Shown here: positions 7,909-59,127 of the stretch, piece after piece
Layout: each line of letters begins with the position of its first letter
Numbering within the stretch: position 1 is the stretch's first letter
Assembly (NCBI RefSeq): GCF_029167365.1
Contig: NZ_JARFNM010000001.1
Span: 62,001-126,000 of the forward strand
Direction of reading: 5' to 3'
Length of the DNA: 64,000 bases
Source of the DNA: Amygdalobacter nucleatus
Lineage (GTDB): Bacteria; Bacillota; Clostridia; Saccharofermentanales; Fastidiosipilaceae
Notes under the pieces: generated by a model
What the model saw: the letters and a program-made list of their open reading frames with translations, nothing else
Told to the model about the DNA's origin: nothing
The model's database searches: none
Translations under genes and position numbers: made by a program

Positions 7909-9264
7909 TCATTGCAAACTGTAATCGCTTTTTAGCTTACCAATTGCCGCTACCATGAAGCAGCACAAGACTAAGCACAAGATAATTGAGCAGATGCTGA
8001 GCGCCCACCAAATACCGCGTATTCCATAAATTGAAGACAGATACAAGGCTAATGGGATACGCGCAGCTGTGCAAACAACGCCCACGATAGCTGGAATAGT
8101 CGTGCGACCAAAGCCATTAAAGACGGCACAGATAACAATTTCGGTACACATAAAGACCTGCGAATAAGCAATGATTTGGAGGTAATTAATGCCATGTTTA
8201 ATTACATCCTTGTCGTTGGTAAATATCTTTAGCAATAAATCAGGATAGAAATACAGCAAGCAGGTAGTGAAACAAGCGAAAATGACGATGAACGTTAATG
8301 CCCGCTTGATGACACTATATGTGCGTTTCATATGCTCAGCTGCGTAATTCTGAGCAACCATCGCTGTTACAGCACCGCCGAAGCTGTCAGCTGTCAACCA
8401 AGATAATGACTCAATCTGCACACCTAAGCGCTGCGCTGCGATAGCTGATTCAGAAAAATTATTCACAATTCTAGTGATAGCCATCGCCACCATACTTACT
8501 AAAACTGTTTGCAAAGCTACTGGTGTACCTAAGCGAATATTCTCACACCAAGTATGCCAATTAAATTTTTCTAAGAAATTCAAGTGCTTGAAATTCTCTT
8601 GTTGAAGTAGGAAATAGAACATCAACAGTGCCCCAACCATTTGCGCCATAATCGTTGCCCAAGCAGCACCAGCTACTCCCCAATTGAAAACGAAAATAAA
8701 AATCGGGTCAAAAATAATATTCAGCACCAAACCCACACAGCTAACCAAAAACGGCATTTTGCTATTGCCGTTAGCCATACTTGCCGCACTCGAAGAAGCT
8801 GATAGGAAAGTAAAAGGGATACCGAAGCTGACGATGACAAGGTATGTCCTAGCCAAATGAATTGTCAATGGATTTTGGAAATGGAAAAAACCGATAATCT
8901 GCCGATTGAACAGACAGAAGACAAGGCAAATAAGCAAGGCAATCGAAACGGTACTTTTTAGAGAAATGACGACATTTTCGCGTGCTTTGGCGATATTTTT
9001 ACGGCCCAAATGGGCAGCTGTATTAACTGAGGCACCAATTTTAGCTAGAGCACTAAAGCCCTCACAGAGCCAGAGCAAAATACCACATGTACCTGCTGCA
9101 ACTAAGCCACTTTCGACCTTAGCTAACCAGAAAACGTCCGTTAGGCTATATGCCATGTACATAAAACCTGTCGTCATGATTGGCAAGGCGAGGCGGATCA
9201 ATGTACTCATAATCGGGCCGGTTAAAAGGTCTAAGCTCTTCTGTTCACGCTTCCAAAAACTCAC
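7909..9264 (-). CDS. MATE-family efflux transporter (second of two)
   Basis: The 451-residue polytopic protein has MATE features: LIRLALPIMTTGFMYMAYSLTDVFWLAKV at the N-terminus (family-typical 'P-x-M...D..W'), two halves of about six helices, and VGVVCTAARIPLALYL near the C-terminus. The start is GTG. Its first G is also the last base of the TAG stop of the preceding ATPase gene, so the two genes overlap by one base and are translationally coupled. The coupling puts an exporter in the same transcript as the YhaN/YhaO-like repair pair, with no obvious functional reason. The substrate is unknown. Confidence 0.88.
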   Translation of the reverse strand: MSFWKREQKSLDLLTGPIMSTLIRLALPIMTTGFMYMAYSLTDVFWLAKVESGLVAAGTCGILLWLCEGFSALAKIGASVNTAAHLGRKNIAKARENVVISLKSTVSIALLICLVFCLFNRQIIGFFHFQNPLTIHLARTYLVIVSFGIPFTFLSASSSAASMANGNSKMPFLVSCVGLVLNIIFDPIFIFVFNWGVAGAAWATIMAQMVGALLMFYFLLQQENFKHLNFLEKFNWHTWCENIRLGTPVALQTVLVSMVAMAITRIVNNFSESAIAAQRLGVQIESLSWLTADSFGGAVTAMVAQNYAAEHMKRTYSVIKRALTFIVIFACFTTCLLYFYPDLLLKIFTNDKDVIKHGINYLQIIAYSQVFMCTEIVICAVFNGFGRTTIPAIVGVVCTAARIPLALYLSSIYGIRGIWWALSICSIILCLVLCCFMVAAIGKLKSDYSLQ

Positions 9265-11939
9265 TATATCGCTGTTCCTTTCTCTTGTGTCTGCATAATC
9301 TGCCAGCTTTTAACTCCGCTAGCTGCTAACACTTCTGTCATATAAGAGTGACATGTAAAAAGTAAAATCTGACTATGTTTAGCTTCCGCAAAATTAGATA
9401 AAGTCTGCAAGGCTACCATCTGATGTTCACGATCAAATTGCACCAAACAATCGTCTAATAAAAGTGGTAATTTCTGTTCACCAACTAAAAGATCGCACAA
9501 GGCTAAACGTAAAGCTAAATATACTTGCTCATAAGCAGCCCCTGATAAATATTCAGCCACATGCCAAGCCTGATCTTCTTTGTATCGTAATTGCAAATGC
9601 AGCTTTTTGTCAACTGTCAATTCTGTGTAGTGGCCTAAGCTTAATTGCTGCAAATAATAGCTGCAACGTTCCCGTAATTTAGGGCTGAAATCATTTTGTA
9701 ATTGCGTAAACAAACTCGTCAACAATTTGTTAGCCAGCTCCAACTGCTCCTCTTGCTGCTTGTAACTAGCTAAAGCTTGGTTGGTAGTTTTCAGTTCACT
9801 TTTTGCTAATTGCAAATTATTAGCTAAATTTGCCTGCTCTTTTACTTTTAGCATCGCTGCGCTCAACTCAGCATGTTGTTGATTCAAGCTAGCGTGCAAT
9901 TTTTCCAGTTCTTCATTTAAGGCAACTTGGACATTTGTCAGTTTGTTAAGAAGTTCTGCATAACTTAGCTCTGGCCAGCTATGCCTATCACATACTTCTC
10001 TGACATTATTGTCTAATTCGCTCTGCAATTTGGTACTTTTTTGCTCTAAAGCTACTTGCGATTGCTTAATGAATTTCTCATTATCCTCAACTAATTGTTT
10101 CTGCTCATTCGCCTTTAATTGCGCCTGTTTAAGCTCTGCTTCCACATGGCTCTGCAAAAGCTGCTTAGCTTGCCGTTCGTTGTTTTGCTCGTTAATTTCT
10201 TGTTCAGCTTGTGCTAATTCAGTTTGCAAATCAGCAACATCACGCTGGCTAGCTTCTTTTGCTAAGAGCAAATTGTCTAGGTAATTGTGCTTGTTTTGAC
10301 TAATTAGCTCTAATTTTTGCGCCGTGTAATCTATCTCAGCCTGTTTGCAGGTTAAAAGTTGCCGTTCAATGTCTGCCAAGCTCAGGCCAATTTGTTCAAG
10401 CTCTTTTTTACTCTGCAAAAAAGCAGGCACTTTTCGTTTGACCAAGCTAAAGCCAACAGCCAAGCCTAAAGTCAGCACCAATAAGCTGATAGGCACGAAA
10501 CAACTTAGCTGACTGGAGAGATAAATCGCACCGCTTATAAGCGTGCAAATCAAGCTCAGCAAAGCTGCCCAGGCTAATTTTTTCGCCTGATTTTGTTTAT
10601 TGACAGCTTGTAATATCTGAATTGTCAGCTTTTCTTTTTTGCTCTGTAATTCACTCTGCGTTTGCTGCAAATGAGTCAATTTCTCGCTATTTTCTGTAAG
10701 TGCTGCTACGCACTCCTTAATAGCCCCTTCACCTGCTTGCAAGCGTTCTGCTTCTGTCTGAATTAATTGGTCTTGTTCAACTAGATGTTGCTGCCAATTT
10801 TGTAATTTCGTTTTGTTCGCTAATTGCCGTTGACTTGTCTTTTTGCGTTGGACATTCAACGTTTCTAATGTCTGTTTAATTAAATTCAGTTCATTCTCCA
10901 AGCGTGACACTTTGCTTGCCAAATTAAAAGACTTAGCCATTTGGGCCTTGTATTCAGCTTCATTGGCAGCTTTAGCCTGGTACTGTTGATCTAGCAAATC
11001 AGCCTGTTCACGTTCTAAACTAGCTAAGTTTCGCTGTTCTTGCTCAAGCGCTTGCTTATTTTGGGTTAAAAGCTGTAACGTTTGCTCACTCTTAGCTAAA
11101 TTAGCACTCAAAGCGTTAAGTTGGAGCTGATCTTTGTTATAGGCTTGGCATTGTTCAGTTAGAGATCTAATTTGCTCATTCAAGCTAGCAATTTTCTGTT
11201 CACAAGCAAAAATCAGGCCGCCTTGGCCTCGCTTAAAGCGCAATGTTTTCAGCTGTTCTTCAATGTTTAGCTGGGCTTTTTGCACATTTACTGAGCTGTT
11301 ACCCGTTAGGCCCAAATTGGTCAAAGCCTCGACAATATCAGGCGCCGAGCTTGTGCTTGGCAAAGTTAAGCTCATCTGTTCAACTAGCAAGGAATTAATA
11401 AACTGCTCCTCTGTCAGCGCAAACAAAAAATAGCCTGGCTCAGTTTCGCCTATATCGACTTGTTCGCCACTTGTTAGGTTGAGCAAAGTAATTTTGTCGC
11501 TCCGATTAGTTTTGCCAAAATAGCGGCCAAGTTCGTACTGGCAGCCTGCATGGCTGAATTTCAAGCTAGCTTCACTTGGCTGCTTATTAAAGTTGAGATA
11601 TTGCTGTCTTCTTGCCAAATTTTTGCTGCTGTTATTGCCTAAGCCATAGAAAAGGGCTCGGATACAGGCAACAATTGTCGATTTACCCGATTCGTTAGGC
11701 CAAATAAGCAAGGTCTTTGTCGGCTCTTGATTGGTGGCTGACTCAGCTGGTTGATTCGGCGTTTTAGCTTGAGTCATCTGCATAGCTGGTCCCTGATTTG
11801 CAGTCGTTAGAGCTTGATTTGCCGCTGTTGGCTCTTGATTTGCAGCAGGTTCTGACTTTACAGTCGTTAGCTCAACAAAGGCTAATTTGAAGTTTTGCAG
11901 CTGACCAAAGGATTTAATGTCGATACTTTGTAAATACAT
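9264..11939 (-). CDS. YhaN/SbcC-like SMC-type ATPase with an inserted Gln/Ala/Thr-rich segment
   Basis: The 891-residue protein has the SMC/Rad50 plan. An N-terminal ATPase lobe carries Walker A PNESGKST at 81-88. Long Gln/Glu/Leu coiled coils follow, with a hydrophobic hairpin near 455-500 (WAALLSLICTLISGAIYL...). The C-terminal lobe has the signature YLSGAAYEQVYLALRLAL and Walker B LPLLLDDCLVQFD. YhaN of Bacillota has the same mid-protein hydrophobic hairpin. The partner nuclease gene is 12 bp upstream, matching yhaO-yhaN. The oddity is about 55 residues (22-75), rich in A/N/Q/T/P with repeated AANQ and TTANQ, placed just before Walker A where relatives have a short beta-turn. The pair probably acts in double-strand end processing (inferred from SbcCD/Rad50-Mre11). 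Confidence 0.88.
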   Translation of the reverse strand: MYLQSIDIKSFGQLQNFKLAFVELTTVKSEPAANQEPTAANQALTTANQGPAMQMTQAKTPNQPAESATNQEPTKTLLIWPNESGKSTIVACIRALFYGLGNNSSKNLARRQQYLNFNKQPSEASLKFSHAGCQYELGRYFGKTNRSDKITLLNLTSGEQVDIGETEPGYFLFALTEEQFINSLLVEQMSLTLPSTSSAPDIVEALTNLGLTGNSSVNVQKAQLNIEEQLKTLRFKRGQGGLIFACEQKIASLNEQIRSLTEQCQAYNKDQLQLNALSANLAKSEQTLQLLTQNKQALEQEQRNLASLEREQADLLDQQYQAKAANEAEYKAQMAKSFNLASKVSRLENELNLIKQTLETLNVQRKKTSQRQLANKTKLQNWQQHLVEQDQLIQTEAERLQAGEGAIKECVAALTENSEKLTHLQQTQSELQSKKEKLTIQILQAVNKQNQAKKLAWAALLSLICTLISGAIYLSSQLSCFVPISLLVLTLGLAVGFSLVKRKVPAFLQSKKELEQIGLSLADIERQLLTCKQAEIDYTAQKLELISQNKHNYLDNLLLAKEASQRDVADLQTELAQAEQEINEQNNERQAKQLLQSHVEAELKQAQLKANEQKQLVEDNEKFIKQSQVALEQKSTKLQSELDNNVREVCDRHSWPELSYAELLNKLTNVQVALNEELEKLHASLNQQHAELSAAMLKVKEQANLANNLQLAKSELKTTNQALASYKQQEEQLELANKLLTSLFTQLQNDFSPKLRERCSYYLQQLSLGHYTELTVDKKLHLQLRYKEDQAWHVAEYLSGAAYEQVYLALRLALCDLLVGEQKLPLLLDDCLVQFDREHQMVALQTLSNFAEAKHSQILLFTCHSYMTEVLAASGVKSWQIMQTQEKGTAI

Positions 11940-15308: not shown

Positions 15309-17387
15309 TTAATAATCCTCGCCGATAACTTTTGCGCGTTTAGCTTTTTTCTTGGCCTTGAAATGGCGATATAAAAAGAAAGCTACACCAAGCAAAATAA
15401 GTACCAGAATAACAATGATGGCAATTAGCCAAGGTGAAAGGCCTTTTTTTTGCTGGCCCATGCCACCCATACCATCCATGTTGTCCATATCACCTATACC
15501 CTCTGGCATAGAGCCTTCAGGCATAGGCGCTTCGTCCTCGATATTTAAGTCAAATTCATGTTCTAATGTCGATGCATTACCGTTTTCATCCTCGTAATGT
15601 AAGACGAATTTGCTCTTGCCACTAAATGGCTGCTTGGCTTTAAGCGTTGCATCAATCGATTTGTTGGCACCAGCTTCAACATTGCCCAAATAAACTGGTT
15701 CCATCTCATAAGGCGCATCGTCCGGGGCGCAAATTTCGGCATTGTAAAGGGAAACTCGGCCCTTGTTAATAAGCTGGCAATAGGCATTCAATTCACCACC
15801 GACTTGCGCTGTTTCTGGTTGCAATTCAAATTTGCTGAAATCAACTCTAACTTTTTGATGCACATACAGCGAAACTTGTTCCTGCGTATTGTAAGAATTA
15901 GACGCATCGTCCTGATACTCTAAGCCCAAATTCAAAGGATAGGCCTTTTGATTCAAAGAAGCTGCCGAAACTAATTTCAGCTTATATTCAATCATTTTGC
16001 CAGCTGGAATGTTTTTAATGAAATAAGCTGTTGCGCCTGATTGAGGCAAAAAAGCTGTTTCGACCTTTTCAGTACCCTGACTGCTGATATTCAAGCGCAT
16101 GTTGCTGACTGCCGTCATTTCAGAGGTATTGCGCAATTTCAAAGTCAAAGTGAACGGCTCACCACCCATGATCTTTTTCGGTTCTGTTTCAAAGCCCTCA
16201 ACCAAGATACGCGGCATCATTTTTTGGCCACCTGCACCACCTAAGACTTCAATATAGGTGTTTACCGTTTCTTTTTTCAGTGTTTGCATCGCATCGAGAT
16301 AGGTAATTTCAAAGGCTATCGGCTGCGTGCCACTGGCTGCTGACTTGCTAATTTCAAAGGTTCCGTAATCTACCTCAATCTGCGTACCGTTATTGAAATC
16401 AGGCTCATTGTAGTAACGACCAGTCAATGGCAAAAGCGGCTGTTCAACAATCGCTGTCTGATCTACTTGGCGGAAAACTAAAGGGCTACCTTGCATTTGC
16501 AATGTCACATTCAAAATCGTCACACGGTCCAAGCCGAAGTTAGCCAAATTGAGCTTAATTGGCACCCACTGACCAGGCGCACCTTTTGGCACATTGGCAT
16601 TGACGGCTTTGAATAAAACTTGGGCATCTTTGGGCGTTGGCGCACCTTGCATGTCAACATAGGCTGTCAAAACTTCGCTTTTGAGTTTGTCACTAGCTCC
16701 CTCTGTGTAATTAACCACAAAGTCAACGGTATAGACTTGGCTCTTAACGTCTTTACGCACCAAAAGGCCACTAAAGCTAACTTGCCAATCTACGCCATTC
16801 CCACTGACTATGCCGGGATACTCTTGCATGGTCAAAACGAAAGGGAAATCAGCGGAATTATTATGTTTCAAATAAACTGATTGTACTTTCTTGTTAGCGC
16901 TACTGAAACTAGCAGCTAAACCTGTATGCGGATCTCGTTCGACAAAGCTCAAATCCAAGTTAAAGCCTGAGCCATAGAAAGCTGCTTTGACGCTTTCTGC
17001 TTTCAACATGAAAGCATTGCCCATGTTACTTTGCTGAGCTTCCGCATTTTCATTTGGCTTAGTTCTCTGCGTGTCTGAACCTACTTGTGCACCAGAGCCA
17101 GGCTGTACACCTGAGCCATTATTCTGCGTGCCCGAGCCATTGCTTTGTGCTCCAGAACCAGCCCCTGCCTGCTGCTTATTGGAAGCGGCTTGTTTAGAAT
17201 TATCACTTCTGTCTGCACCTGTAAGTAAATTGCCCGCTGATAATAAAGGCTTGGCTTGGCCACTTGCATAAGTTATATGGCCACACATTGGCCCAACTAA
17301 GCTGATAACTAAGCCCAGACTGAGCACCTGACTAAACAATGCTAATTTTGCTTTGTTCACACTACTATGTTTTTGTTGATAAGCCAT
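15309..17387 (-). CDS. Large membrane-anchored extracellular protein with COG1361/CARDB-like beta domains, partner of ABC transporter
   Basis: The 692-residue protein has an N-terminal hydrophobic signal segment (about 15-42). A Gly/Ser/Asn/Gln-rich linker follows at about 60-115 (NGSGTQNNGSG, QPGSGAQ). Then come several immunoglobulin-like beta domains with phrases such as PFTLTLKLRNTSEMTA, MSISSQGT-like strands and AYCQLINKGRVSLYNAEI, as in COG1361/CARDB proteins. A MPEGSMPEG/GMGGMG linker, one C-terminal helix (WLIAIIVILVLILLGVAFFLY) and a basic cytoplasmic tail end the protein. It is thus a cell-surface protein anchored at its C-terminus. The gene lies between the ATPase (14 bp) and permease (8 bp) genes, so it probably works with the MacB-like transporter. 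No sortase motif is present. Family assignment is by style only. Confidence 0.75.
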   Translation of the reverse strand: MAYQQKHSSVNKAKLALFSQVLSLGLVISLVGPMCGHITYASGQAKPLLSAGNLLTGADRSDNSKQAASNKQQAGAGSGAQSNGSGTQNNGSGVQPGSGAQVGSDTQRTKPNENAEAQQSNMGNAFMLKAESVKAAFYGSGFNLDLSFVERDPHTGLAASFSSANKKVQSVYLKHNNSADFPFVLTMQEYPGIVSGNGVDWQVSFSGLLVRKDVKSQVYTVDFVVNYTEGASDKLKSEVLTAYVDMQGAPTPKDAQVLFKAVNANVPKGAPGQWVPIKLNLANFGLDRVTILNVTLQMQGSPLVFRQVDQTAIVEQPLLPLTGRYYNEPDFNNGTQIEVDYGTFEISKSAASGTQPIAFEITYLDAMQTLKKETVNTYIEVLGGAGGQKMMPRILVEGFETEPKKIMGGEPFTLTLKLRNTSEMTAVSNMRLNISSQGTEKVETAFLPQSGATAYFIKNIPAGKMIEYKLKLVSAASLNQKAYPLNLGLEYQDDASNSYNTQEQVSLYVHQKVRVDFSKFELQPETAQVGGELNAYCQLINKGRVSLYNAEICAPDDAPYEMEPVYLGNVEAGANKSIDATLKAKQPFSGKSKFVLHYEDENGNASTLEHEFDLNIEDEAPMPEGSMPEGIGDMDNMDGMGGMGQQKKGLSPWLIAIIVILVLILLGVAFFLYRHFKAKKKAKRAKVIGEDY

Positions 17388-22155: not shown

Positions 22156-22161
22156 TATAAT
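22156..22161 (+). promoter_or_regulatory. -10 box of the deacetylase-like gene, eight bases before its ATG
   Basis: A perfect TATAAT lies at 22156-22161 and the ATG is at 22170. Transcription would begin about at the start codon, giving a leaderless or nearly leaderless mRNA. No Shine-Dalgarno sequence is present between the box and the ATG. Confidence 0.45.
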
Positions 22162-22169
22162 AGTTAATT

Positions 22170-24014
22170 ATGAAGAAGCATGCAAACCGTAGAACTCAAG
22201 TTAGACCTGTAAGACCAAATGTAATTAGTCAGCCAGTGCAAGTTCGCCCAGTTGACTCTGATTTACGCACGCCCAATGAACAGCCGAAAAGTACAACTAA
22301 CAGCCAGTTGGTCCATTTAGATAGTGTACTTTTCAGCGAACAAGTGAAAATCGTTAAACACCCAACCTTTATCGCTAAACCACAGACTAAAACTAAACAA
22401 CTTAATGAGCCTAAAAGCGAACTAAATAACGAGCCTAAAAACAAATCTGTACAAACAGAAATTAAGCAAGCTGTTTTAGAAACAGAACAGGTAAAAACTA
22501 GCGTTAGCCAAACTGCTTCTAAGAGAAACGAAGAAGCTGTAACTAAGCCTGCTACACCTAGCGCACAAACTGCCAACGCTAAGCCAGAACTTAAGCAAAC
22601 GGCAGCGTTATTAAACCCGTCTACAATCATAGATGCGCAACTTCGCCAATATGAACAACTGCCAAAAATCAGACGGCACAAGAAACAATTTGATCTTGGC
22701 AATCTGCTTATATATGTACTTGGCTTTTTCCTACTTGTCGGCTTAACTTTCGCCCTGTGGCCCAAAGATGACGTGTTTGCACCCAGCAAACTGCAAAAAG
22801 AAGATGAAGCCGAATTGGCCGTACACAATCATATGCTAAAAGTCACCGATAAAGCTGTCAGTACAGAAACACCAGAAATGACGGTTGCGATGACGACAGA
22901 AGCTGTCGATGAAATTAGCAAATCGGCTAACGGTAATATTTATTACAGCCAGTCTATCGGTCCAAAGCTCTGCAAAAATTCAGCCAAAGATCTGAAATTG
23001 CCACACTTGGCACCTTTGACTTATCGACCAGACAAGCTCAACCAAAAATACAAAGAATGGGGTATTCAGCACTCTAAGCAGACTAAAGATGGCGAACGTT
23101 TGCCTGTAATTGACGATGAATGCAATAACTATGTTGTCAATTATAATGTCCTATTCGATCTCAACCGCGAAGTCATGCAAGATGTTTCTTCACGCTATGC
23201 CTCTTATTTAGCAGATGAACAAGCAAAAGCTCATAACCAAGCTAAACAGGCTAACCAAACTGGTGAGACTGAGGTTGAGCCAAGCCAAAGCCAAGTAAAG
23301 AATAAACAACAGGAACTTTCAGCCGCTCAGAAAGCAAATGCCAAATATCGGCCGAACAAGGTTGTCTATTTGACCTATGATTTCCCGACAACTGAACTTT
23401 TGCATGCTAAATCTGTTTTGGATACCTTGGAATTGTACCAAGCCAGTGCCACTTTCTTCATAAGTGGTGAGTTCCTGACCGAAGCGCCTAATCTGGTGTT
23501 GCGTATGCAAAAAGAGGAACACGCTATCGGCTCACTTGGTTGGGAACCAATTGATGCAGCTCGCTTGGCTATCCGCAACGAAAACACTTTCCTTAACCAT
23601 CTAACGAAACTGGATAAAAACTTCCAATTATTAACTGGCCGGCCTTTGGACAGTTTCTTTAGACCTAGCGAGGGATCATACAGCGAACAGGCACTTTTCT
23701 TAATTAGAAACGCTGGCTATTACCCGACATTCTGGGGCGTAGAATTGCATAATTTCTGGCCTGATTCCAAAGATACCTTGAATTACCGCTATGACAATCT
23801 CCGTAACCGTAATTTCAACATTGATCCTTACCCATTCACCGTTGAGCAGGCAATCAATCGCATCATGCAGGACTTACATGACGGCCTTATCATTCGTTTG
23901 GACGGGCGTTCCAAAGTCGATGTAGCACTCTTGGAGCCGCTTATCAAGAAATTGCAAGCAAAGGGCTATCGTTGTCTCAATCTGAACGAAATTCCACTGA
24001 ACGTGATAGGCTAA
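22170..24014 (+). CDS. Membrane-anchored polysaccharide-deacetylase-like protein with degenerate active site
   Basis: The 614-residue protein has a long basic, Thr/Lys/Gln-rich cytoplasmic N-terminus (1-175), one membrane helix (about 177-197, LIYVLGFFLLVGLTFALW) and a large outer part. The outer part ends in a NodB-type domain (about 397-610). The fold phrases are clear: VVYLTYDFPTTE, ASATFFISGEFL, HAIGSLGWEP, SFFRPSEGSYSE and KKLQAKGYRCLNLNEI. However, TFDDG reads TYDFP (only Asp404 kept), the HTxxH metal pair is lost (SLGWEP) and the LLH motif reads IRLDG. It is probably not an active Zn-dependent deacetylase and may bind glycan instead (inference). An SDR gene follows after 10 bp. The start is set by the first in-frame ATG after TATAAT. 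Confidence 0.75.
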   Translation: MKKHANRRTQVRPVRPNVISQPVQVRPVDSDLRTPNEQPKSTTNSQLVHLDSVLFSEQVKIVKHPTFIAKPQTKTKQLNEPKSELNNEPKNKSVQTEIKQAVLETEQVKTSVSQTASKRNEEAVTKPATPSAQTANAKPELKQTAALLNPSTIIDAQLRQYEQLPKIRRHKKQFDLGNLLIYVLGFFLLVGLTFALWPKDDVFAPSKLQKEDEAELAVHNHMLKVTDKAVSTETPEMTVAMTTEAVDEISKSANGNIYYSQSIGPKLCKNSAKDLKLPHLAPLTYRPDKLNQKYKEWGIQHSKQTKDGERLPVIDDECNNYVVNYNVLFDLNREVMQDVSSRYASYLADEQAKAHNQAKQANQTGETEVEPSQSQVKNKQQELSAAQKANAKYRPNKVVYLTYDFPTTELLHAKSVLDTLELYQASATFFISGEFLTEAPNLVLRMQKEEHAIGSLGWEPIDAARLAIRNENTFLNHLTKLDKNFQLLTGRPLDSFFRPSEGSYSEQALFLIRNAGYYPTFWGVELHNFWPDSKDTLNYRYDNLRNRNFNIDPYPFTVEQAINRIMQDLHDGLIIRLDGRSKVDVALLEPLIKKLQAKGYRCLNLNEIPLNVIG

Positions 24015-24024
24015 AAGGTTATTT

Positions 24025-24957
24025 ATGACAGAAAATTATTTTATGCTCAAGCGTACACACACACCTAAAATAAATCCAGGCTCTAACAAAGTGGCACTCA
24101 TCACGGGCGCTGATGGCTATTTGGGCCAAGAGTTCACACGCAATTTGGCCAAAAGCGAATTAAGCCAAGCTGTCAATTATTTTGTCTTAGTGGGAAAAAG
24201 TTTGCTTACAACTTATAGAACGGATCTAGCCTGGCAAGCAGAATTAGCAAACTTAGTCGATAGCAAAGACCAATTTGTCGCCTTTCTCCTCATAAATTTA
24301 GATTTTTCTAAGGCGGAAGCTATAACAAAATTAATCAGTTTAATGGATACATTAATTGGTCCAAACTGGCAACTTAGTTGGCTCATCAACAATGCTGGAC
24401 TTGGCTTCAAGGGCCCTTTGGAAATTCAAAGTATAGCAGCCACCCAAACTTGTTTGGCCGTCAACATACTATTTCCGACTTTGCTCATAAATACGTTGCT
24501 TAATCAACAAAAATTCACACCTGAAAAGGCCTATATCCTGAACACAGCCTCATCTTCTGCCTTTAGTCCGCAGGCTAATTTTGCTGTTTATAGTGCCACA
24601 AAAAGCTATCTCTTTCATCTAAGCCAAGCTCTTAGGGCTGAGTGGCAGGCAAGGGGCTTAAATCTCAACTGCACAGTGGCTTGTCCAGGCCCAATGCCTA
24701 GCCAATTTCTAAAGCAAGCAGCTCGCTTTACAGAGGCTAATTCAAATAGCGCTGAGGCAAATGCTATGCAAAAATTAGTCTGGTACAAACAGTTAGCCAT
24801 GGAAAATGCTAGTCAGGTGGCCAAAGCAGCCCTCAAAGCCTGTTACAAAAATAAGGCCGTCAGCTATTCAAGCCCAATCACCTATGTTTTTCGCCTGTTA
24901 AGTAAAATTCTGCCAAGTAGTTTGTTCGCCTATCTGACGAGTCGCGGTAAGGCGTAA
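24025..24957 (+). CDS. Short-chain dehydrogenase/reductase family protein
   Basis: This classical SDR of about 310 residues has the cofactor loop TGADGYLGQEF near 28-38, INNAGLGFKGPLE, the catalytic Ser in NTASSSAFSP and YSATKSYLFHL (Tyr and Lys, YxxxK), then the ACPGPMPSQF loop. All catalytic residues are in place. It resembles the DltE-like/YqjQ-type SDRs often annotated as general ketoacyl-type reductases, but the substrate cannot be told. An N-terminal stretch of about 20 residues precedes the Rossmann fold; a later start is possible but has no ATG with a better ribosome site. It follows the deacetylase-like gene by 10 bp and is probably in its transcript. Confidence 0.88.
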   Translation: MTENYFMLKRTHTPKINPGSNKVALITGADGYLGQEFTRNLAKSELSQAVNYFVLVGKSLLTTYRTDLAWQAELANLVDSKDQFVAFLLINLDFSKAEAITKLISLMDTLIGPNWQLSWLINNAGLGFKGPLEIQSIAATQTCLAVNILFPTLLINTLLNQQKFTPEKAYILNTASSSAFSPQANFAVYSATKSYLFHLSQALRAEWQARGLNLNCTVACPGPMPSQFLKQAARFTEANSNSAEANAMQKLVWYKQLAMENASQVAKAALKACYKNKAVSYSSPITYVFRLLSKILPSSLFAYLTSRGKA

Positions 24958-25338: not shown

Positions 25339-25902
25339 ATGAAATACGATTATGCTTTTAAACTTAATGCTGTAGAACTATATCGCTCTGGTCAGTGGAT
25401 TGAGACACCAGAAGGTATAAGTCAAAAGAATTTTAGAAAAAGAATTGTACAATGGTCAAGAATTGCAGATATATATGGTCTTGATTCTCTTCGGCATCCA
25501 ACTACATGTAAAGAACGTTCGGCTGAATGTAGATATCAGTTAGTAGCTCGTGTACTTGCTGGTGAATCACAAAAATCTGTTGCTATTAGTGCAGGAATTG
25601 ATAGTGGATTATTGTCTAAATGGGTTCAGACATATAAAGTTAAAGGGTATGAAGGATTAAATCTCAAAAAAGGCAGAAAAAGTAAGAAGGAAGCAAACGT
25701 GAGCAAGAAATCCAAACCCACTGATTTAACCCCATCAGAACGTGAAGAATTAATTCGTCTTAGAGCAGAAACTGAATACTTAAAAACGGAGAATGAAGCA
25801 ATAAAAAAATTAATCGCCTTGAGACACGAAAAATGGGCTGCGGAACTCAAGGCGAAAAAGCAGCAATCATCAAAGAACTCCGTGAAAAAGGATACCAATT
25901 AA
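25339..25902 (+). CDS. IS3-family transposase OrfA
   Basis: The 187-residue protein carries helix-turn-helix regions (VARVLAGESQKSVAISAGIDSGLLSKWVQTYK-like) for binding the IS ends. A basic KKGRKSKKEANVSKK stretch and a coiled coil (EREELIRLRAETEYLKTENEAIKKLIAL) follow, the leucine-zipper-like part typical of IS3 OrfA. It overlaps orfB by 70 bp. An A AAA AAA run at 25803-25809, in the correct phase (ATA AAA AAA), is a good -1 slippery site that would give an OrfAB fusion. Confidence 0.92.
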   Translation: MKYDYAFKLNAVELYRSGQWIETPEGISQKNFRKRIVQWSRIADIYGLDSLRHPTTCKERSAECRYQLVARVLAGESQKSVAISAGIDSGLLSKWVQTYKVKGYEGLNLKKGRKSKKEANVSKKSKPTDLTPSEREELIRLRAETEYLKTENEAIKKLIALRHEKWAAELKAKKQQSSKNSVKKDTN

Positions 25903-26720
25903 AATATCTCTTAAAAGCTATTGGCATGTCTAAATCAACTTATTATTTTGAGATTAACAAATCAGATGTAGTTGCTGATCGCAATGAAGAATTACTGATT
26001 GTTATTAGAGAAATATTTGAAAAAAACAAGCATAGATATGGTGTTCGTAGAATTTATCATGAATTACTAAATCGTGGATATCATATAAATCATAAGCGAG
26101 TTCAACGCCTTATGCATAAAGCAGGATTAGCTGGTAAGCGTCCAAAGGAAAAATATCATTCTTATAAGGGCGAAGTAGGTAAGATTGCTGATAATGTAAT
26201 AAATAGGGATTTCAGTACAACAGCACCATTGCAGAAATGGACAACAGATGTCTCTCAGTTTAATTTTTCATGGGGGAAATGCTATATCTCTCCAGTACTG
26301 GATATGAATACGAATGAAATCATTTCATATAATTTATCAACAAGCCCGAATCTTGAGCAGGTATCAAGAATGCTGGATAGAGCTTTTGAAAAATTCCCAT
26401 CTGTTGAAGGGCTTATATTTCATTCAGACCAAGGTTGGCAGTATATGCATGCCTATTTTAGAAATACCTTACAGAAACACGGTATTGTACAGTCTATGTC
26501 GCGAAAAGGTAATTGTTATGACAACTGTATAATGGAAACCTTCTTCGGAAGACTAAAGAATGAGATGTATTACGGCTATGAGAAAGATTATTCCTCCTTC
26601 GAAGAATTCTCAAAAGCAGTTGAAGAATATATAGATTACTATAATAATAAAAGAATTCAGGCAAAAACAAAATGGATGCCTCCTGTACAATACAGGATAG
26701 CATCCATGTGTCCAGCCTAG
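25833..26720 (+). CDS. IS3-family transposase OrfB (rve/DDE integrase core)
   Basis: The 295-residue frame has the HTH_21 segment RHRYGVRRIYHELLNRGY-like sequence and then the DDE catalytic core: WTTDVSQF (first Asp), FHSDQGWQYMH (second Asp) and NCYDNCIMETFFGRLKNEM (Glu). The core ends with YIDYYNNKRIQAKTKW. All three catalytic acids are present and the frame is intact. It is in the -1 frame relative to OrfA; the frame is open upstream of its ATG to the A7 run, so the natural product is probably OrfAB by frameshifting. Confidence 0.93.
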   Translation: MGCGTQGEKAAIIKELREKGYQLKYLLKAIGMSKSTYYFEINKSDVVADRNEELLIVIREIFEKNKHRYGVRRIYHELLNRGYHINHKRVQRLMHKAGLAGKRPKEKYHSYKGEVGKIADNVINRDFSTTAPLQKWTTDVSQFNFSWGKCYISPVLDMNTNEIISYNLSTSPNLEQVSRMLDRAFEKFPSVEGLIFHSDQGWQYMHAYFRNTLQKHGIVQSMSRKGNCYDNCIMETFFGRLKNEMYYGYEKDYSSFEEFSKAVEEYIDYYNNKRIQAKTKWMPPVQYRIASMCPA

Positions 26721-57336: not shown

Positions 57337-59127
57337 TTATTTAGTCGTTGTAGCTGTTACTTGGCTAGTTACAGGTCTTTTAGCTTGCTCAGATTGCTTA
57401 GCTGCTTGGCTAGCTTGTGGCTTGTTAGCTTCAGCTTTAGCAACTACTCGTTTCAAGAATGGTGCACGATCAACCAGCTTATTAGCGAAAGCGTGAACAA
57501 CTTTGTTCTCAGGCTTCTCTAACAAGGCTTGAAAATCTTTATCAATCTTAGCTTTTGATTCTTTGTATGAAACAGTTGATTGCCATGCAGCCTTTGGTAA
57601 GCGCTCCAAGAATGTAACACCATACAAGCCTAACCTGTCATCTTGGAAGATGTTAGTGTCGCCAGCCTTTCTTGACTCAGTTTCTAACCATTCGCCTAGC
57701 TCAGCAACAAATGGGCTTGTGCTTGGCACGAAGTCTACCATATCCATGAAGGAAGATTTATAGTCTTTAATCTCTGTCTTCTTCATAGCTTCCAAACTGT
57801 TGTTCTCAGCTAGATATGCTTGCAAAGCATCATTGGCAGCCTGCATAGCTTCTTTGGCTTGTGCATCAGTCAACTTGTCGCTAATCTTCTTAGCCGTCTT
57901 GTATTGTTGCTCGATTGTGCGCTTTTGAATCATACGTAAAGTTGCATGTATAGTAGCGCTCTCATCTCTTTGACGACCTAAATACAAGCCGAGATTAATT
58001 ATACTTGTATTATCTTTACTCTTTGTATAGACATCATTAGCCTTGCGTTTAGCATCACTTACGAATTTGGCAAAGTCAGCATTTGTGATCATGTCTTTCA
58101 AGCGCTTATAGCGATAAGGTGCAACTGGACGCATGCCATTTTCTGATTGATAAATGTTTTTGTATTTATCAACAAATGCGACGAATGAAGCTTGATCTTT
58201 GATTGCAGCCTTTGCTTCTTTCTCGATAGTCTTTACTTTTTCGTTAGCGGCCTTTTTAGCCTTTTCTAACTTTGCTCTGTATTCTTTTTGCAATTTAGCA
58301 GACTCTTCATTGATCTGTTTCAATTTCTCTTTGTCTGTTTCCTTGCCTCGTTCAGGCATCTTAGGCTGCTCAACTTTTTCAGGTTTCACAACTAAGCTGG
58401 CATAGAGGAAATCGTAAACGTCATATTCATCTTTCTTAGCTTGATATAACTTCTCTAATTCATCATCACTGTATTTAACAGACTTTGGGGCTTCTTTCTT
58501 GTACTTTTCAGCAATTGTCTGTTTGCGCAACAATTCACGGAACAAGTTCTCTGTTACACCCTTACCATAGTTAGTAGCCAAAGCTTCATTTAAGGTTGTC
58601 TTATTGGCAACTAATTTTTGCTTATAGTTGTCGATCATCTTATCAAGTTCAGCTTGTTCTTTCTCATCCAACTTGATACCGTTCTTCACAGCTTCTTCGT
58701 AAGCTAAAACAAATGACTGGACTTGCTTATCAGCAACTTCACTAATCATCTCACCCCATGTTTGCCCTTTTTTCTCAGAGAAAGCAGCTGGATCATTCAA
58801 ATTAATCTGCTGGCCCATACGTTGAGCGTAGCGATTAACTTGACTTGCGATTGTGTTATAGAAAAAGTTATACTCTGCAACTGTTACAGTATGTGAGCTG
58901 ACTTTAGCTGCCGGTAAGTATTTCTGGGCAAAACCAAAAGAAATACTGCTATATAGCAACACAACCACTAAGATGAGTGCTACAACTACTGTTGCAACAT
59001 AGTTCACACTCTTTTTGAGTTTGAGCGGTGCTTTTTGACCATCCTTATTTTCGCTAGCTAAGCGCTCTTCTCTCGCTTCTCTAGATAACTCCGTTTTTGA
59101 TTTCATCTCATTTTTGTCTTCTTGCAT
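57337..59127 (-). CDS. SurA/PrsA-like membrane-anchored foldase
   Basis: The 596-residue protein has a charged cytoplasmic N-terminus (about 40 residues), one membrane helix (about 43-65, YVATVVVALILVVVLLYSSISFG) and a large outer domain. The part after the helix (VSSHTVTVAEYNFFYNTIASQV, ...FVLAYEEAVKNGIKLDEKEQAELDKMI) matches the SurA_N/PrsA-type chaperone domain. A long K/E-rich helical part and a C-terminal region (about 460-560) that could be a degenerate prolyl-isomerase domain follow. No clear PpiC core motif was recognised. It probably helps fold secreted proteins at the membrane. The ATG at 59127 could be replaced by an ATG eight codons later. Confidence 0.7.
   Translation of the reverse strand: MQEDKNEMKSKTELSREAREERLASENKDGQKAPLKLKKSVNYVATVVVALILVVVLLYSSISFGFAQKYLPAAKVSSHTVTVAEYNFFYNTIASQVNRYAQRMGQQINLNDPAAFSEKKGQTWGEMISEVADKQVQSFVLAYEEAVKNGIKLDEKEQAELDKMIDNYKQKLVANKTTLNEALATNYGKGVTENLFRELLRKQTIAEKYKKEAPKSVKYSDDELEKLYQAKKDEYDVYDFLYASLVVKPEKVEQPKMPERGKETDKEKLKQINEESAKLQKEYRAKLEKAKKAANEKVKTIEKEAKAAIKDQASFVAFVDKYKNIYQSENGMRPVAPYRYKRLKDMITNADFAKFVSDAKRKANDVYTKSKDNTSIINLGLYLGRQRDESATIHATLRMIQKRTIEQQYKTAKKISDKLTDAQAKEAMQAANDALQAYLAENNSLEAMKKTEIKDYKSSFMDMVDFVPSTSPFVAELGEWLETESRKAGDTNIFQDDRLGLYGVTFLERLPKAAWQSTVSYKESKAKIDKDFQALLEKPENKVVHAFANKLVDRAPFLKRVVAKAEANKPQASQAAKQSEQAKRPVTSQVTATTTK

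Follow-up and report, generated by a model that had tools for sequence, protein, structure and literature searches.

A predicted membrane-anchored PdaA-type NodB protein of Amygdalobacter nucleatus that has lost its metal ligands

The window analyzed here, a stretch of 64,000 nucleotides from Amygdalobacter nucleatus (contig NZ_JARFNM010000001.1, positions 62,001 to 126,000; G+C 40.9%), carries on its forward strand, at 22170..24014, an open reading frame of 614 amino acids that, according to the ORF list, PF01522, TIGR02884 and a fold match, reads as a PdaA-derived pseudoenzyme of the NodB fold. The ORF begins with an ATG, placed two codons into the open frame, has zero internal stops, and lies within the range of the 25 other window ORFs in both codon usage and GC3. 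Its start is uncertain, since in-frame GTG/TTG alternatives occur at residues 23, 47 and 59, and inspection by eye upstream of the ATG at 22170 did not reveal a clear ribosome site. A TATAAT at 22156-22161 (+) ends 8 bases 5' of the ATG; used as a -10 box it would give a near-leaderless transcript, and no -35 box for it was seen by eye. Ten bases past the stop codon is a short-chain dehydrogenase/reductase (SDR) gene (24025..24957, +, identified by Pfam), which, to judge by the spacing, is probably co-transcribed with the pseudoenzyme gene.

Just downstream of the SDR gene are two overlapping transposase-like frames (25339-26720, +), and a matching transposase copy is located near the second CE4 gene of this genome, described below (L068:979-2369, -); we take both to be of the IS3 type. 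The window also contains three long ORFs with no Pfam match at 1e-5 (9264-11939, 15309-17387 and 57337-59127 (-), encoding 891, 692 and 596 amino acids), with an FtsX-like permease gene near the first two. A search of the whole window against Rfam at gathering thresholds returned one tRNA and nothing else.

The original prediction described a long basic cytoplasmic N-terminus preceding a lone membrane helix, and our analysis bears out the basic N-terminus and the helix. Residues 1-175 (22170..22694, +) form a basic, low-complexity tail (30 K/R versus 17 D/E) that is mostly disordered, with pLDDT below 50 in the model at residues 9-126 and 128-149. The single predicted membrane helix, modelled at residues 176-195 (22695..22754, +), coincides with the only hydrophobic stretch in the hydropathy windows (residues ~172-199); its flanks are positive on the N side and acidic on the C side, so that an N-inside, C-outside orientation, with the tail in the cytoplasm, is predicted. 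A mostly disordered linker outside the membrane (residues 196-278; 22755..23003, +; pLDDT below 50 at 201-251 and 265-278) leads to the ectodomain, which according to alignment and model opens with a PdaA-type N-terminal segment bearing a conserved W297 (residues 279-332; 23004..23165, +). This is followed by an inserted helical hairpin (residues 333-393; 23166..23348, +; modelled helices 333-363 and 373-393), where relatives mostly have a gap, and by the NodB domain itself (residues 394-614; 23349..24011, +; PF01522, model and fold match), in which the alignments place an insertion of ~21 residues between motifs 4 and 5 (23772..23834, +), modelled with partly low confidence.

The prediction of a NodB fold is well founded. 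PF01522 matches residues 394-518 (E 7.2e-15; 55.5 bits against a cut-off of 23.1), and residues 270-614, modelled with 76 relatives (pLDDT 85.4, pTM 0.82), match Bacillus subtilis PdaA (1ny1) at Z 29.8 and rmsd 2.1, with 232 residues aligned of the 235-residue chain. The structural alignment begins at model residue 21 (protein residue 290), and the likeness to PdaA (1ny1/1w17; TIGR02884) extends across nearly the whole of PdaA and takes in its type of N-terminal segment. TIGR02884, the PdaA model, is also the best NCBIfam model for the protein, at 110.6 bits and under its curated cut-off of 298; three canonical relatives score 298.2, 304.2 and 351.2 bits. In a 33-row tree, drawn without the row L090 and eight weak or other-type rows, the protein falls on a long branch inside a 23-row PdaA-like fork (support 94/87).

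What separates the window protein from PdaA, apart from the lower score and the added membrane anchor with its long inner tail, hairpin and loop, is the loss of both metal His residues, the motif-4 Asp and the motif-5 His. Motif 2 (residues 451-460; 23520..23549, +) reads HAIGSLGWEP, so that IGSLGWEP stands against IGNHSWSHP in the alignments and the metal His pair is lost to L456 and P460; motif 5 (residues 573-581; 23886..23912, +) reads LIIRLDGRS, with IRLDG aligned to LLHxxS, the His replaced by Asp578 and a Leu by Arg576. Both of these losses were foreseen, and the alignments add a further one that the original prediction did not include, the change of the motif-4 Asp to Asn528 (WGVELHNF, residues 522-529; 23733..23756, +). 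For the other two motifs the earlier account holds in part. Motif 1 (TYDFPTTE, residues 402-409; 23373..23396, +) is altered from TFD(D/N/E)G and has lost its metal-side position, in a register that varies after D404 between alignments, but T402 and the first Asp (D404, the catalytic base) are kept, and the change at the second position is not telling because most of the PdaA-type relatives observed already carry E or N there. Motif 3 (RPSEG, residues 498-502; 23661..23675, +) was thought to be kept; its Arg, R498, is retained, but the second Pro of RPPxG, which is Pro in 122/125 relatives, is Ser.

The contrast with these relatives is uniform. In the multiple alignment the window protein shows H456L, H460P, D528N and H578D, while the relatives have H, H, D and H at these positions in 125 of 125 cases, a result that is unchanged when they are grouped into 121 clusters at 98% identity or 111 at 90%. 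The motif-3 Arg is present in every one of the 125 as well as in the window protein, and the D404 position is D in 119, N in four and uncovered in two. The 125 are the non-identical members of 131 aligned sequences, which combine the best 80 of 470 fetched by DNA pattern with those 51 of 53 other loci that gave a tblastn match, and they exclude the pseudo proteins of the same genome and of the family genome G005. One of the two DNA patterns contains the motif-1 Asp, so that among the 80 pattern-fetched sequences retention of this residue is partly selected; neither pattern covers the motif-2, motif-4 and motif-5 positions, and their retention is therefore not an effect of the search. With H, H, D and H in all 125 non-identical relatives, chance does not explain the loss in the window protein.

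A second alignment (A2) of 76 relatives, which leaves out L148, L151, L176 and the duplicate L105 from the best 80 of 470, contains 58 columns that are at least 90% conserved; the window protein matches 36 of them, a count that could move by one or two because A2 and the 125-relative alignment disagree on the register just past D404. The changes fall mainly within the motif zones, where 19 of 37 conserved columns differ, versus 3 of 21 elsewhere (Fisher p 0.006, which is indicative only, as the zones were drawn by eye after the alignment had been viewed and the columns are not independent). Read from sequence and model, this pattern is one of chemistry lost and fold retained. Deacetylation needs a metal and a general acid, neither of which can form here as in PdaA, and we are highly confident that the window protein is not a metal-dependent deacetylase. 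The pseudoenzyme originally proposed is well supported, in that the fold is kept while the metal ligands and general acid found in 125/125 relatives are gone. The glycan-binding or regulatory role suggested alongside it would hold by analogy with BA0330/BA0331, described below.

Searches for an orthologue gave consistent negative results. The full-length protein was used in exact-peptide-word scans, whose reach is limited to close relatives; neither the genome contigs nor the viral contigs yielded a relative, and no congeneric orthologue was found in the searched set, where the genus is represented by one genome. Around the HD-domain neighbor, the genes read in six further genomes of the family (L062-L067, of which two are short stretches) include no PdaA-like or SDR gene, so that synteny yields no orthologue either. 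An order-wide search matched 65 of 188 genomes at 1e-5; 20 places were turned into loci, namely the window protein's own (L184) and 19 others (L187, L192 and L198 being re-cut from earlier places), and all 19 of these stronger matches keep the motif-2 His pair and the motif-5 His, some of them after an odd pairwise view that the multiple alignment resolved.

In the host assembly (95.5% complete; 1,614,203 bases in 3 contigs), PF01522 matches two proteins, the window protein and a second CE4 protein (L002/L068), and the PF04748 deacetylase family matches none. A single Amidase_3 frame of 472 amino acids in the same genome is a possible partner. The second CE4 protein is encoded by an intact 746-aa frame at L068:5793-8030 (-), in contig C1 at ~895.8-898.0 kb, and a long N-terminal part precedes its one clear membrane helix; another hydrophobic window, at 358, is weak. 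Its motifs are TFDHLP, a motif 2 without His, RLNK in place of RPPxG and ELT at the motif-5 His, and its PdaC-like region is barely detectable (E 0.33); judged by these motifs it also reads as a dead CE4 protein.

Site loss is also seen elsewhere in the family. In G005, which belongs to a related genus, L087 (L102:5628-6674, -) is without the motif-2 His pair but keeps the motif-5 His, and L095 (L101:1623-3311, -; a 563-aa frame), a PdaC-like and dead protein, has lost both; L095 directly adjoins an intact CE4 gene, L076 (L101:3257-5749, -; an 831-aa frame). The second host protein pairs weakly with L095 in the tree (support 78/41) and the window protein lies in the PdaA-like fork, so the site was probably lost more than once. 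No other branches of the tree are as long as those of the four pseudo-NodB proteins (6.37, 3.65, 2.71 and 2.05; median 0.56). In the family survey behind these comparisons, 30 of 31 PF01522 places were extracted; one row, L090, is a neighbor's frame, and a further eight, weak or of another type, were left unclassified.

A different change was observed in four PdaA-like proteins from four family genomes (L015, L033, L035 and L036, from G010, G002, G003 and G009), where the motif-1 Asp is Asn, as in SwsB, and all His are kept. Going by these residues, they might be lactam cyclases acting outside sporulation. Their genomes have no SpoIVA match, and the same is true of all 12 family genomes searched, some of which are incomplete (control matches were obtained in B. 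subtilis and Thermotoga).

CE4 pseudoenzymes are already known, and the window protein is a further variant of them; among the papers listed by our search of the literature on inactive CE4/NodB proteins and on an Amygdalobacter deacetylase, there are CE4 pseudoenzymes from Bacillus and from other sources, but none on the window protein itself. SwsB/YlxY and BA3943 (7bkf, 6hm9, 6hpa) are deacetylase-dead relatives of PdaA, BA3943 presumably being the SwsB orthologue; the model matches the BA3943 structures, two of which are mutants, at Z 22.9-23.8. The nearest structural precedent is BA0150 of Bacillus anthracis (4M1B), which the model matches at Z 24.1. BA0150 is described as a metal-free NodB pseudoenzyme for which an origin from a MurNAc deacetylase is proposed, with a predicted N-terminal membrane anchor and altered motifs 1 and 2 (PMC6115787, PMC10967932). 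All 21 members of its NodB1.1 group, as that account describes them, conserve the second motif-3 Pro, the motif-4 Asp and the motif-5 His (PMC10967932). The window protein has lost all three and so goes further than BA0150, here compared by its published description; it is also much longer (614 versus 254 amino acids). The nearest functional precedent, by analogy, is BA0330/BA0331, two CE4 proteins that also have a membrane anchor. Deacetylase activity is reported to be undetectable in them, although they bind to purified peptidoglycan, and a role in stabilizing the wall has been proposed for both (PMC4505593). They are described as lipoproteins of NodB2 topology with an Fn3 domain, whereas the window protein is predicted to be bitopic, and with its different topology BA0330 serves as a precedent by function only (PMC10967932).

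On balance we lean, with some reserve, toward the window protein being a non-catalytic, membrane-tethered pseudoenzyme that binds or scaffolds the wall, comparable to BA0330/BA0331 and derived from a PdaA-type MurNAc deacetylase. Its outer domain would have descended from such a peptidoglycan deacetylase and given up the deacetylase role, and the metal center appears to have been replaced by a metal-free arrangement in which D404 and R498 are kept and R576 and D578 are new. With such an arrangement at the old center, both deacetylation and lactam cyclization would be unlikely. By analogy, either the old groove or the new hairpin may still bind a partner, be it glycan or an enzyme of the wall, and a wall-stabilizing or scaffolding outer domain may in this way be tethered to the membrane by the helix and its basic inner tail. 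The position of the four pseudo-NodB proteins on the four longest branches counts against this reading, as it would fit relaxed constraint too.

Relaxed selection is in fact the alternative that we take most seriously, while considering it rather unlikely: sporulation would have been lost, and with it the need for PdaA-type chemistry, and the protein would still be made, functionless and drifting. The absence of SpoIVA matches from the family genomes, the description of Amygdalobacter as non-spore-forming (PMC11318147), the long branch of the window protein and the lack of a catalytic site in both CE4 proteins found in its genome are all consistent with such a relic. A drifting relic is harder to reconcile with 614 intact codons of ordinary usage, with the retention of 18 of 21 conserved columns outside the motif zones, and with a protein that has gained sequence (hairpin, loop and long tail) rather than eroded. 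Furthermore, the His pair and the motif-5 His persist in PdaA-like proteins of other family members that lack a SpoIVA match, so that loss of sporulation alone does not cause loss of the site.

Two further alternatives would leave the protein a catalyst. A metal-independent enzyme of other chemistry, such as a muramic-delta-lactam cyclase like SwsB, is suggested by the published account of SwsB, a relative of PdaA that no longer deacetylates and that acts as a cyclase with no transition metal (PMC12444981), by PdaA being the best NCBIfam model, by the retention of D404 and by the occurrence in the family of the four PdaA-like proteins with the SwsB-type Asn at that position. In the same account, mutation of the motif-5 His abolishes cyclase activity in PdaA and SwsB (PMC12444981), and the window protein has D578 there. 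SwsB, moreover, is described as having lost the Asp, Thr and Arg while keeping the metal-binding motif and the motif-5 His, and the window protein, with T402, D404 and R498 kept, is its mirror image; nor would a spore cortex be expected in this SpoIVA-negative family. We regard such an enzyme as very improbable, and a SwsB-like cyclase was rejected as the main reading because the required motif-5 His is Asp578. A deacetylase with a metal site rearranged from D404, D578, E525 and H527 could draw on the new acidic residues at 525 and 578 and the His at 527, and seems to us scarcely credible, as all of the compared relatives keep the standard site and hence provide no intermediate.

A broader and quite speculative proposal, to which we give little credence at present, is that CE4 deacetylation has been abandoned in this genome, that both of its NodB proteins (one PdaA-type, one PdaC-type) are bitopic, non-catalytic wall receptors whose inner tails link the state of the wall to the cell inside or to wall hydrolases, and that G005, where one copy is intact and two are pseudo copies, is part-way there.

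The CE4 pseudoenzymes in the literature consulted come mostly from Bacillus; the window protein provides a clear case outside that genus. Its host is a small-genome anaerobe, probably a vaginal bacterium, and labels such as PF01522 or PdaA-like would falsely predict peptidoglycan deacetylation in it. Since neither of the two CE4 proteins detected in the genome has the site, the role of a dead deacetylase can be addressed in this organism with no known active paralogue interfering.
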